DNA from: Olivibacter sp. SDN3
Lineage (GTDB): Bacteria; Bacteroidota; Bacteroidia; Sphingobacteriales; Sphingobacteriaceae
Direction of reading: 5' to 3'
NCBI RefSeq assembly: GCF_014334135.1
Contig: NZ_CP060497.1
Location: 3,224,001 to 3,288,000 of the forward strand
Length of the DNA stretch: 64,000 bases
How positions within the stretch are numbered: position 1 is the stretch's first letter; the number at the start of each line of letters is the position of its first letter. This document shows, piece by piece, positions 21,161-53,394 of the stretch. The notes beneath the pieces are model-generated. The model saw nothing but the letters and a program-made list of their open reading frames with translations, had not been told where the DNA came from and ran no database searches. Made by a program: the position numbers and the translations under genes.

Positions 21161-22228
21161 ATGAGAATAATCATTTTTTTAGTATTGGTCGTCACCACGG
21201 AGACCGGGAGGTCCCAGATTTTTTTTGATACCTCTTCACATATCAACAATAACCGGGCGATTTTTTCGCTCGTGGTGTCCGTAAAAGACAGCATTGCCTA
21301 TGCGGGGTCTTTTAACGGTAAAGAGAACAATGATCTTTTCAATAATCAATCCTTAACTAAGAATGTTGAGGCGGTGCTGATAGGAATCGCGATTGATAAA
21401 GGTTTTATCAGATCACTTGATACAAAGATTGCTGATTTCTTGCCCGAGCTAAAAGACGAAACCGACAAACGTAAGCTTAATATTACATTAGGGGACCTAA
21501 TGAACCAGTCTTCCGGGTTGTGGCATGAAAATCTGGAACGGTTGGATATTTATCTGGGGCTTAACAACCCGTCAGGTCACGTATTGAAGCAGTCTCTGCT
21601 GTCAGAACCCGGTACAGAACTTTATTACAACAACGCAGCTTCCCATCTATTATCAGTAATCCTTTCAAAGGCCACCGGACAAACTACCTTCGACTTTGCT
21701 CGCAAATACTTATTTGAACCTTTGGGTATTCAACGGGTAGAATGGGCGAAGATGAAAGATGGCTATTATGATGGCAGTGGGTTATTAAGTGTACGTATGA
21801 GTACCATTGACATGAATAAAATAGGAAGGCTGTTACTAAACGGTGGTCATTATAGAGGAAAACCGATTGTTTCTCAAAAGTGGGTAGAAGCTCTACTTAA
21901 ACCTACAAAAACATTTCCGGCTCCCTGGGGCTTGCCAAATACCGAATATGGGCTTTGTTTTTACCACAAAAGGTATAAGGATAAAAAACTTACATACGGT
22001 ATGGGCTGGGGTGGGCAGTTCTTGATTTTAATTCCCGATTTAGATGCGGTAATATCCGTTAATCAGGAAATAAACGATCAAACAGCTATCCAACAAAGTG
22101 AAACTTTTATGGATAGGATATTTCCAATGATTTTTGACTGGATCAATGCTGGAAATCAAAAATCATCCGATAAATCCTACAAAAATACAGAACAGTATTG
22201 CTTAAAAACTACCAGCCTTATTCAGTAA
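21161..22228 (+). CDS. serine hydrolase, beta-lactamase/penicillin-binding-protein fold (class C type)
   Basis: About 355 residues from ATG 21161 (MRIIIFLVLVVTT, signal peptide to about residue 18); a TTG at 21107 would add 18 residues before the signal and is unlikely. The catalytic SxxK is Ser64-Leu-Thr-Lys67 (NQSLTKNV). The YxN element is Tyr156-Asn-Asn158 (YNNAASHLL). The third motif is the GWGG near residue 288 instead of KTG. Such enzymes are esterases, D-aminopeptidases or peptide hydrolases, rarely true beta-lactamases. A remnant of an S24 repressor tail lies directly downstream. Confidence 0.85.
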   Translation: MRIIIFLVLVVTTETGRSQIFFDTSSHINNNRAIFSLVVSVKDSIAYAGSFNGKENNDLFNNQSLTKNVEAVLIGIAIDKGFIRSLDTKIADFLPELKDETDKRKLNITLGDLMNQSSGLWHENLERLDIYLGLNNPSGHVLKQSLLSEPGTELYYNNAASHLLSVILSKATGQTTFDFARKYLFEPLGIQRVEWAKMKDGYYDGSGLLSVRMSTIDMNKIGRLLLNGGHYRGKPIVSQKWVEALLKPTKTFPAPWGLPNTEYGLCFYHKRYKDKKLTYGMGWGGQFLILIPDLDAVISVNQEINDQTAIQQSETFMDRIFPMIFDWINAGNQKSSDKSYKNTEQYCLKTTSLIQ

Positions 22229-22236
22229 ACATGAAT

Positions 22237-22359
22237 GAGACGCCGGAAATATGGCAATACGTCAACTATCAGTAGAATAACCTGCCAGAACCGGAAACCA
22301 GTCTCCTGAAGGTCGAGCAAATGTTGTCGGATATCAAGCAGAAATGAGCAAAGGAATAA
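22237..22359 (+). pseudogene. C-terminal remnant of an XRE/S24 (LexA-like) repressor
   Basis: The 41 codons from GAG 22237 to TAA 22359 align without a gap with the last 41 codons of the intact S24 repressor (52095-52217). Shared are EIW, YV, LPEPET, ML, D and KE. Two in-frame stops break it: TAG at 22273 and TGA at 22345, where the intact gene has TGG. The rest of the gene is missing; a serine-hydrolase gene ends eight bases upstream. This is a decayed paralog, cut off at the 5' side. Confidence 0.8.
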
Positions 22360-51359: not shown

Positions 51360-51406
51360 TATATTTGTCATTATTAATAACAGTTAAAATGTCATTAATA
51401 ATGACA
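51360..51406 (+). promoter_or_regulatory. tandem palindromic operators overlapping the S24 gene promoter
   Basis: The -7 element TATATTTG (51360-51367) overlaps operator 1, TGTCATTATTAATAACA (51366-51382). Operator 2, TGTCATTAATAATGACA (51390-51406), is a perfect 8+1+8 palindrome. Their centres are 24 bp apart, about two helical turns, and operator 2 ends seven bases before the S24 start. This is the classic arrangement for cooperative autorepression by a dimeric repressor. Confidence 0.75.
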
Positions 51407-51413
51407 ATAAAAA

Positions 51414-52217
51414 ATGGAAAGCGAAGGCACAAAAGTTTTTTTCAGGAACAATCTGCTTTTTCTGCGGAAGCGTAAAAAGTTCAGCCAGGAGCATCTTGCG
51501 AAGCTGCTGGGGTTCACGCGTAGCAAGTACACCGCACTGGAGAACGGGCAGACCGAAAACCCACTATTGGCAGATTTAATCAAGATATCGGAATTTTTTA
51601 GCATATCAGTGGATCGCCTTCTAAAAACCGATCTGAGCTACTGGAGCGAATACGATCTCCGCAAAATGGAAACCGGCGGTAGGGAATATATCAATGGTAA
51701 AAACCTGCGTGTACTTTCGATTACCGTCACGCCAGATAACCGGGAAAATATGGAATATGTACCGATCAAGGCCAAAGCCGGTTACAGTGCCGGTTATGCC
51801 GATCCAGAGTTTCTGGCGGCTCTGCCCAAGTTTTCTCTGCCCAACCTACCCAGTGGAGGTACCTACAGGATGTTCCCCACTACGGGAGATTCCATGTTGC
51901 CCATTCCAGAGGGGAGTGAGGTGGTGGCTCGTTACGTACAGGACTGGAAAACGCTAAACCCCGCTACATTATGTATTGTCATTCTCAGGGGCGAGCAAGA
52001 CTTTGTTTTCAAGGAAGTCACCGTGCAGAAAAACGGCACATTGCTATTACGCTCCTTCAATAAAAACTACGCCCCCTATACGGTGGAGGCTAACGAGGTG
52101 CTGGAGATATGGCGATATGTCAAACACCAGACGGATAAACTGCCGGAACCGGAAACCGATCTACAAGAGATCAAAAAGATGCTAGCAGATATGCAGCATA
52201 AGTGGACGAAGGAATAG
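51414..52217 (+). CDS. XRE-family LexA-like repressor with S24 autopeptidase domain
   Basis: A 267-residue protein. The N-terminal HTH (about 12-68, FSQEHLAKLLGFTRSKYTALENGQ) is of XRE type. A linker leads to a peptidase S24 domain (about 115-235). All three LexA landmarks are present at fitting spacing: an Ala122-Gly123 cleavage site (KAKAGYSAG), nucleophile Ser160 (TTGDSM) and Lys200 (FVFKEVT), 40 residues on. Cleavage after DNA damage or another cue would relieve repression. A helical tail (240-267) is extra. A decayed paralog tail lies at 22237. Directly followed by the HD gene. Confidence 0.9.
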   Translation: MESEGTKVFFRNNLLFLRKRKKFSQEHLAKLLGFTRSKYTALENGQTENPLLADLIKISEFFSISVDRLLKTDLSYWSEYDLRKMETGGREYINGKNLRVLSITVTPDNRENMEYVPIKAKAGYSAGYADPEFLAALPKFSLPNLPSGGTYRMFPTTGDSMLPIPEGSEVVARYVQDWKTLNPATLCIVILRGEQDFVFKEVTVQKNGTLLLRSFNKNYAPYTVEANEVLEIWRYVKHQTDKLPEPETDLQEIKKMLADMQHKWTKE

Positions 52218-52240
52218 AAACACAAGGAATAAATCATATA

Positions 52241-53077
52241 ATGATCATATACGATACCCTGTATGGGGAATTTGAAATTGCACCGGTTATTGAGGCGCTT
52301 ATCGCTTCGGCGCCTGTGCAGCGCCTGAAAAAAATCCATCAGGGTGGAGCTATCTTCCTTATAGCACCAGCTATCAACCATTCCCGTTACGACCATTCCA
52401 TTGGCGTGATGTATCTGGTGAAGCATCTGGGCGGTAATATCGAAGAGCAGATCGCTGCGCTCCTGCATGATGTGTCGCATACCGCATTTTCGCATGTAGT
52501 CGATTATCTGTTCGAGCGCGAAGGGGAGGATTACCATGAAGATCTCTTCAGAACGGTCATTCTGGAATCTGCCATACCTGATATACTTTTAAGCCACGGC
52601 TACCATGTTGAAGACCTGTTTACCAAAGCCTATCCCTTGCTGGAACAGCCATATCCCTATCTGTGCGCAGATCGTGTGGATTATGCGCTGCGCGATTCGT
52701 ACATGGCTGGGCTGATGACTATTGACGAGATCCGGCAGTTCATGCGGGAGCTTACCATACGTGATGGGCGTATCACCTGTGAGAACAATGTAAAACTGCA
52801 GTGGTTCAGGGCAAAATTCAGGCAGCTCAACGAAGATTACTTCCGTAAACCCGAATACCTATATGTCAACCATCACCTGGCAGATTTGCTTCATCATGCG
52901 CTGTACCTGGAAGTTATCCGGGAAGAAGACCTGATGGGCAGTGACGATGAGCTGCTTGCGCTGTTGAACAGCCACCGGCTCACACACGGAGGCCTGTCGG
53001 CAATAGGCCGGCTGTTAGGCTTTGACACATTTGATGTAGAAGCCGCTGCGGCGAAACTCAAAACGCGTGAGCTATAG
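52241..53077 (+). CDS. HD-superfamily phosphohydrolase (SAMHD1/COG1078-like)
   Basis: About 278 residues from ATG 52241; a GTG at 52202 would overlap the S24 gene by 16 bases. The four metal ligands of an SAMHD1-type dNTP triphosphohydrolase or related HD enzyme are in place: His47 (HSRYDHSIGV), His76-Asp77 (LLHDVSHTAFSH) and Asp144 (CADRVDYALRDSY). The QRLKKIHQGG segment matches the family too. The regulatory C-terminal region of SAMHD1 is absent. Being 23 bases after a cleavable repressor, it is probably induced by stress. dNTP or another nucleotide is the likely substrate by family. Confidence 0.88.
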   Translation: MIIYDTLYGEFEIAPVIEALIASAPVQRLKKIHQGGAIFLIAPAINHSRYDHSIGVMYLVKHLGGNIEEQIAALLHDVSHTAFSHVVDYLFEREGEDYHEDLFRTVILESAIPDILLSHGYHVEDLFTKAYPLLEQPYPYLCADRVDYALRDSYMAGLMTIDEIRQFMRELTIRDGRITCENNVKLQWFRAKFRQLNEDYFRKPEYLYVNHHLADLLHHALYLEVIREEDLMGSDDELLALLNSHRLTHGGLSAIGRLLGFDTFDVEAAAAKLKTREL

Positions 53078-53136
53078 TTGAGGGGCGTACAAAGACATGC
53101 CCCAACAAAATAAAATATCAATTGAAAAACGTTACA

Positions 53137-53394
53137 ATGAACGAAATATTTTTAATCGAAGTGCCCTATAGAAATAGTACATATACCTTTGAAGCACGTT
53201 TGTTGAGTATCGGCTATACGTATAAAATAGATGTAGAAGTTGCGGGAGCAACGGTGAGCTTTGAGCCCGATGAGGAGCGCCGGTTCCGGGCAGTCGTAGC
53301 CGATCAGGCGGGCAGCAATGCCAAGTTATTGGAACCGGCGCTGGTACAGGCAATCGGGAGCTTTCTGGAGAAGCAATTGGGTGTGAGGTATTAA
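53137..53394 (+). CDS. small conserved-looking protein downstream of HD gene
   Basis: About 85 residues from ATG 53137 (MNEIFLIEVPYRNSTYTFEA). It is beta-rich with a short C-terminal helix (LVQAIGSFLEKQLGV) and a motif TVSFEPDEERRFRAVV that I associate with small Bacteroidota proteins of unknown function. It follows the HD gene by 59 bases on the same strand, so it is probably the third gene of the S24/HD operon. The alternative TTG start at 53122 adds five residues. Confidence 0.7.
   Translation: MNEIFLIEVPYRNSTYTFEARLLSIGYTYKIDVEVAGATVSFEPDEERRFRAVVADQAGSNAKLLEPALVQAIGSFLEKQLGVRY

Follow-up and report, generated by a model that had tools for sequence, protein, structure and literature searches.

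Why should a gene for a SAMHD1-like hydrolase stand directly behind a gene for a LexA-like repressor, in a genome that carries its primary LexA elsewhere? This question is raised by a locus of Olivibacter sp. SDN3 (family Sphingobacteriaceae), located in a stretch of 64,000 nucleotides (positions 3,224,001 to 3,288,000 of NZ_CP060497.1, forward strand; hereafter the window) that comes from one 6.1-Mb chromosome. Three genes follow each other on the plus strand: an S24 repressor gene (51414-52217), whose product of 267 amino acids has a CI-type helix-turn-helix (HTH) and an S24 peptidase domain; a gene for an HD-domain phosphohydrolase of 278 amino acids (52241-53077), SAMHD1-like, which starts 23 base pairs (bp) behind the repressor gene; and a gene for an 85-amino-acid protein without an assigned function (53137-53394), recognized as an open reading frame (ORF) with a relative in O. 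jilunii. An earlier reading of the window from its letters alone (the sequence-only reading) had described these genes as one self-regulated module that might deplete deoxynucleoside triphosphates (dNTPs) during DNA damage or phage attack. The three co-directional ORFs are real, and the idea that a cleavable repressor drives a SAMHD1-like enzyme is now better supported than that reading knew because relatives of the HD gene carry an SOS box. We consider it fairly probable that the locus represents a small operon responding to DNA damage through a private LexA-type switch, and that its HD enzyme most likely hydrolyses (deoxy)nucleoside triphosphates.

SOS boxes upstream of HD phosphohydrolase genes

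The short HD family to which the window protein belongs was detected in 110 of 399 genomes of the family Sphingobacteriaceae (E<=1e-30) and, in the class at large, in 4 of 395 genomes, all from one family and including the window genome. Longer and more distant HD relatives are widespread, with a match in each of the 60 relatives searched and one at 1.75 Mb in this genome. The survey of the short family used 111 of 113 places, two partial places being left out. An exact CTAA-N5-TTAG box is present within 300 bp upstream of the gene in 79 of these 111 places, compared with a mean of 0.78 and a maximum of 3 in 100 rounds of shuffled upstream sequences and with one coding and no downstream control stretch at the same places. 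The same arms separated by 4, 6 or 7 bp were never found, and by 3 bp only once. Box positions range from -40 to -184, with two boxes each in front of 26 of these 79 genes. After redundancy thinning, the box was still found in 39 of 66 places (75% identity) and 24 of 50 (60%), and the long HD paralogues, used as a control outside the short family, lack it in all 25 cases. Since CTAA-N5-TTAG is not enriched genome-wide (93 occurrences vs. 185 for the control), the result rests on the place of the box and not on its number.

The distribution of the box is uneven among genera: it precedes 67 of 76 HD genes in genus g14, 10 of 15 in g15, two of four in g1 (the genus of the window), none of 15 in g16, and not the single gene in g5. 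Within the genus of the window, a 66% orthologue carries CTAAATTTATTAG at -184; the window copy has no such box and sits behind the S24 gene instead. Some further box-less copies adjoin genes of other kinds. In two genomes, the HD gene is located 8-9 bp behind an alkB-like gene, and in one of these cases the neighbour passes the Pfam model 2OG-FeII_Oxy_2 and a box is found at a distance of 1431 bp upstream; in two places of a third genome it follows SRAP genes, one identified by Pfam and the other by clustering. Damage control of the HD gene is thus suggested by three kinds of context, and the SOS boxes of the relatives are the main support for this part of the sequence-only reading. The HD family is probably an unrecognized member of the SOS regulon in Sphingobacteriaceae, and in the window a paralogue of LexA would have taken over its control from the main LexA.

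When all 256 possible arms were ranked in the HD upstream regions, CTAA and TCAA were followed in third place by the A+T-only arm AATA, with 20 occurrences. Of the other arm orders tested, TCAA-N5-TTGA is a second conserved palindrome and the remainder gave at most 3. A longer palindrome around the TCAA arms, TTTCAA-N5-TTGAAA, is common to six of eight HD upstream regions compared, in five of which the SOS box follows it at a distance of approximately 70 bp; examples of TCAA-N5-TTGA are found at loci L232, L235, L236, L239, L241, and L245.

The repressor and its twin operators

The promoter of the S24 gene contains a -7-like element, TATATTTG (51360-51367, plus strand), of the Bacteroidetes TAnnTTTG type; among 58 S24 rows, which include two duplicates, 53 have an exact TAnnTTTG shortly upstream of the gene. 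Two 17-bp dyads accompany it, operator O1 (TGTCATTATTAATAACA, 51366-51382) and operator O2 (TGTCATTAATAATGACA, 51390-51406), the latter of the form TGTCA-N7-TGACA, with a start-to-start distance of 24 bp. The sequence-only reading was right about the two palindromes and their spacing and wrong in letting them cover the -7 element, of which O1 shares just the last two bases, while O2 is situated between the element and the start codon. The evidence for these dyads comes from a genome search, from shuffles, and from pairs in relatives. Their joint score was reached by none of 1000 dinucleotide shuffles, a pair score of >=12 was obtained for 38 of 56 S24 upstream regions vs. 4% of shuffles, and by a half-site rule, 43 of 56 S24 genes have a pair with a spacing of 23-24 bp in front of them, compared with a mean of 0.17 and a maximum of 2 in shuffled sequences. 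The 13 upstream regions without a pair include six distant loci and three copies that have no divergent polymerase gene. O1 and O2 are the sole sites in the genome with zero or one mismatch to the operator. Four sites with two mismatches were considered as further operators and rejected, as they are at the control level (6 sites per strand in total vs. 7 for the reversed pattern).

The protein itself retains what a self-cleaving repressor would need. Its HTH matches PF01381 (HTH_3) above the cut-off (2.1e-08), and its Pfam S24 match falls slightly below the cut-off (21.9 vs. 23.3 bits), as does that of the primary LexA copy of the same genome. The autocleavage residues Ala122-Gly123, Ser160, and Lys200, which had already been pointed out in the window, are each kept in all 56 usable rows of the S24 alignment, the window's row included (a 57th, mistranslated row was left out). 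Because the twin operators are conserved and the cleavage residues intact, self-regulation by a cleavable LexA-type repressor, as previously proposed, is well supported by the sequences.

Sanchez-Osuna et al. 2021 (PMC8565304) described, in the main text, Bacteroidetes S24 repressors that act as LexA via CTAA-N5-TTAG or GGA-N5-TCC, extensive paralogy and motif divergence among these regulators, and one paralogue that is induced by mitomycin C together with an adjoining divergent error-prone polymerase gene. Like these non-canonical LexA proteins, the window repressor combines a CI-type HTH with an S24 domain, an Ala-Gly site, a Ser-Lys dyad, and dyads in its own promoter. Unlike them, it has twin TGTCA-N7-TGACA sites in that promoter and neither CTAA-N5-TTAG nor GGA-N5-TCC as its motif, it has lost the polymerase neighbour, and an HD phosphohydrolase gene lies behind it. 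A multi-gene SOS network of its own was not found in the genome at zero or one operator mismatch. Considering that a primary copy, 41% identical to the window protein, exists elsewhere in the same genome with its own CTAA-N5-TTAG box (CTAATAATATTAG) in its promoter, and that motif divergence among paralogues has been described, the window repressor is best regarded as a diverged paralogue of the Bacteroidetes non-canonical LexA and not as the SOS LexA.

Usual partners of the repressor and history of the locus

Where does this paralogue normally reside? The S24 survey found 56 places in 52 of the 399 family genomes, of which 46, including the window, were examined and ten were not included; one locus (L184) starts 198 bp before the S24 gene, so that a divergent partner would not be visible there. 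An imuA gene is divergent from S24 in 25 of the 46 copies, with imuB and dnaE2 behind imuA in 24 of them (the contig ends in the remaining one). A divergent DinB-like gene is found beside S24 in 14 other copies, each at a locus with a DnaE-like match, which brings polymerase-type partners to 39 of 46. Seven copies have neither partner: besides the window copy, they comprise one that sits at a contig edge, one that directly follows the dnaE2 in the cassette of a different S24 copy, and four more. The divergent imuA genes resemble the known arrangement of imuA-imuB-dnaE2 cassettes under LexA, and the window locus differs from it in that the cassette is absent. The window repressor belongs to an eight-member clade (support 98/90) in which each of the seven other copies is linked to imuA. 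In O. jilunii, the relative of the small gene directly follows S24 at a distance of approximately 30 bp. In the simplest history, the cassette would have been lost, and the small gene separated from S24 by the gain of the HD gene.

The sole imuB found in the genome (E<=1e-20) lies 1.1 Mb from the locus and is split by an insertion element. Since transposase ORFs interrupt it, the main mutasome of this genome is probably broken. Upstream of the imuA gene at this distant locus are two CTAA-N5-TTAG boxes, one of them exact and the other a near match. The split imuB is located at about 4.394-4.396 Mb (L210, 8732-11490), and its insert is approximately 1.2 kb long and contains two transposase ORFs of the HTH_Tnp_1 and rve families. 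Within approximately 35 kb of its intact S24-imuA locus, O. domesticus has a second, partial copy of S24 (L074, 19267-19659) and a relative of the small gene with an internal TAG (L076, 6383-6610); such remnants are a sign of repeated rearrangement in that region.

Polymerase genes at 39 of 46 loci also bear on the suggestion that the locus is a prophage or defence remnant, in which a phage CI-like repressor would be combined with an anti-phage dNTPase. PHROG phage repressor families do match the S24 protein, and dNTP-depleting enzymes are known to defend bacteria. However, PADLOC reported nothing for the HD or the 85-amino-acid protein, and for the S24 protein it returned regulator-type models only (such as HTH_VI, Control_protein, and capH). 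No S24 or HD relatives were confirmed in the viral contigs scanned, and no phage-like genes are present among the annotated neighbours of the locus, which comprise AHSA1-like, beta-lactamase-fold, glycosyl hydrolase, FecR, SusD, TonB-receptor, AraC, thioredoxin, and MacB-like genes. Thus, the role in phage attack once proposed for the locus found no positive evidence here, and a phage or defence origin appears very improbable.

Active site and likely chemistry of the HD protein

In the alignment with SAMHD1, the metal ligands of the HD enzyme are His52, His76, Asp77, and Asp144, all of which are kept in 111 of 111 relatives. Three of these had been correctly named before; the fourth had been placed at His47, which is retained in only 99 of 111 relatives, whereas His52 (in the motif RYDHS) corresponds in the alignment to the histidine of RFEHS in SAMHD1. 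Arg49, His80, His85, Asp88, Arg145, Asp147, and Tyr148 are likewise invariant in the 111 relatives, and His99, Arg151, and Asp152 are kept in 110 of them. Further active-site residues of SAMHD1 are thus present: we take His80, His85, Asp88, His99, Arg145, Tyr148, and Asp152 to be the counterparts of catalytic positions, and at the Arg145 position the alignment shows a lysine in SAMHD1. The HD profile matches the structure 2hek over residues 3-273, nearly its full length (1.9e-27), and SAMHD1 over residues 2-122 (4e-18), a second stretch not being significant alone; as regards C-terminal regions for allostery and oligomer formation, a structural model built without an alignment was too poor to use (predicted local distance difference test score, pLDDT, 41). 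The SAMHD1 dNTPases are the nearest relatives in the PDB whose names indicate a function. With SAMHD1, 2hek, and 2o6i (which we take to be EF1143), the window protein shares the metal ligands, the surrounding residues, and an N-terminal strand of the DxLYG type; unlike SAMHD1, it is a minimal form linked to SOS boxes. Because the SAMHD1-type residues are invariant and the profile matches both 2hek and SAMHD1, the protein fits a dNTP triphosphohydrolase, and we infer dNTP hydrolysis as its reaction.

Another chemistry has to be weighed here. The HD gene may be damage-regulated while its product acts on a different phosphate ester in a signalling or clean-up role; candidates would be nucleotide second messengers, nucleoside monophosphates, damaged nucleotides, and the ends of nucleic acids. 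The HD superfamily is chemically diverse, Pfam finds only a generic HD domain in the protein, the NCBIfam matches, to HD-fold phosphonate oxygenases, all remain below the cut-off, and the strong similarity to SAMHD1 is limited to the N-terminal part given above. Yet the surroundings of the metal site hardly vary across the relatives, the closest functionally named structures are dNTPases, and a relative adjoins a MazG-like gene in two Priestia plasmid contexts. Considering these points together, a substrate other than (deoxy)nucleoside triphosphates seems to us rather unlikely, though not far-fetched.

The best HD relatives from collections of plasmids and phages show 39-46% identity and belong to Listeria, Priestia, Lysinibacillus, and Hymenobacter records (those labelled as phage are unannotated). 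In the two Priestia megaterium contexts (L032 and L034), the relative stands right behind the MazG-like gene, of the nucleotide pyrophosphohydrolase type. No S24 gene is annotated in four Bacilli contexts, for which the gene table is incomplete. A Listeria record of the plasmid collection has a relative (approximately 45% identical) with a one-mismatch GAAC-N4-GTTC site at -46, a match that is not rare by chance in 400 bp; it would fit SOS control in Bacilli as well and is only a lead.

Proposed regulation and its weighing

The mechanism that we favour starts from a repressor that would bind its twin TGTCA-N7-TGACA operators and keep its own promoter, and with it the operon, at a low level. 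Upon DNA damage, loaded RecA would cause the repressor to cut itself at Ala122-Gly123 by means of Ser160 and Lys200, which would induce the repressor gene, the presumably co-transcribed HD gene 23 bp behind it, and perhaps the small gene. An enzyme family that would ordinarily belong to the main LexA regulon, with its CTAA-N5-TTAG boxes, would here respond to the paralogue with which related genomes guard imuA-imuB-dnaE2. By hydrolysing (deoxy)nucleoside triphosphates, the induced enzyme may then lower or clean the dNTP pool during damage.

Several observations weigh against this proposal. On the side of regulation, an exact box is missing from the 300 bp in front of 32 of the 111 HD genes, among them the entire set of 15 from genus g16, and another palindrome, TCAA-N5-TTGA, occurs in 40 of the 111 upstream regions, so that upstream conservation alone can raise motif counts. 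The genome has no second operator pair with zero or one mismatch, so that the repressor does not serve as a global SOS regulator in it, and a hairpin behind the HD gene may set the small gene apart from the operon. On the side of chemistry, the HD protein has 278 amino acids, compared with 480-672 in the chains of SAMHD1 and 2o6i, and in E. coli the dNTP supply is commonly considered to increase, and not to decrease, during the SOS response. Finally, the window genome is the only one of 22 holding both genes in which S24 and HD are adjacent, a figure counted by hand from the lists of S24 and HD homologues at the thresholds used; the three genes are not a conserved module, as had been supposed, and the usual partners of S24 are polymerase genes. 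No S24 gene was found in the flanks of the other 110 HD loci or in 23 wider flanks (E<=1e-3), and neighbours of HD recur in 4 of 24 loci at most.

Such a singular adjacency is what would be expected if the HD gene had landed behind the repressor by chance and were expressed from elsewhere, without a functional link at this locus. A sigma-70-like match in the gap between S24 and HD, whose -10 hexamer runs into the start codon of HD, could be taken in the same sense, in a region with six such matches vs. 4.6 expected. On the other hand, the gap is only 23 bp long and contains no terminator-like site, the operators and cleavage residues of the repressor are intact, and the HD gene is already linked to SOS boxes in relatives; therefore, its control would be preserved behind a promoter of the LexA type. 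A chance neighbourhood is accordingly improbable in our judgement, and the damage operon under its own LexA-type switch is preferred.

A wider claim, about which we are more hesitant and which may well prove too broad, is that a SAMHD1-like hydrolase is a regular part of the Sphingobacteriaceae damage response, restricting or cleaning dNTPs, and that Olivibacter has swapped its regulon from the main LexA to a cassette-less paralogue. The SOS response of the best-studied bacteria is linked to a greater dNTP supply and to mutagenic synthesis. If the claim is true, a damage-induced SAMHD1-type enzyme would have the opposite sign, with dNTP limitation serving as a bacterial checkpoint, and the hydrolase might brake error-prone synthesis or bar a replicating phage. 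The window locus would also be a natural experiment in regulon evolution, in which a LexA paralogue switches its target and the operators stay.

No paper on an SOS-controlled HD dNTPase was found in the literature searched. The main text of PMC8565304 does not contain the words phosphohydrolase, COG1078, dNTP or dGTPase, and SOS and LexA are unmentioned in the available part of a work on a Caulobacter dNTPase (PMC12186491). Within this literature, the SOS link of the short HD family appears not to be in print.

The small gene and other features of the window

The hairpin between the HD gene and the small gene (53082-53103, plus strand) was identified by folding and has a 7-bp stem and an 8-nucleotide loop without a T-run. 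With a z-score of -2.41 and 3 of 200 shuffles folding equally well, it is possibly a weak attenuator and not a clear terminator; no terminator-like sites were found on the plus strand of the locus region. The 85-amino-acid protein has no family match in domain and phage-family libraries and no fold match at E<=0.001, and its model (mean pLDDT 76) shows five strands and one helix.

The raised G+C content that had been ascribed to the region is weak and not distinctive: it is 48.4% at 52001-53000 vs. 43.3% and 44.2% alongside, and reaches 50-51% at 43-45 kb of the same window.

A second trace of an S24 gene is found at 22203-22358 (plus strand), where a beta-lactamase-fold ORF ends and before an AraC-type gene. 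A second S24-HD junction at 22.2-22.5 kb was considered and rejected, as the sequence behind this trace does not resemble the HD start significantly (the same level was attained by 122 of 2000 shuffles). The S24 part is real: it is a decayed 3' end with stops, 69% identical in DNA to the window S24 gene (blastn 7e-11, tblastn 1.6e-13).

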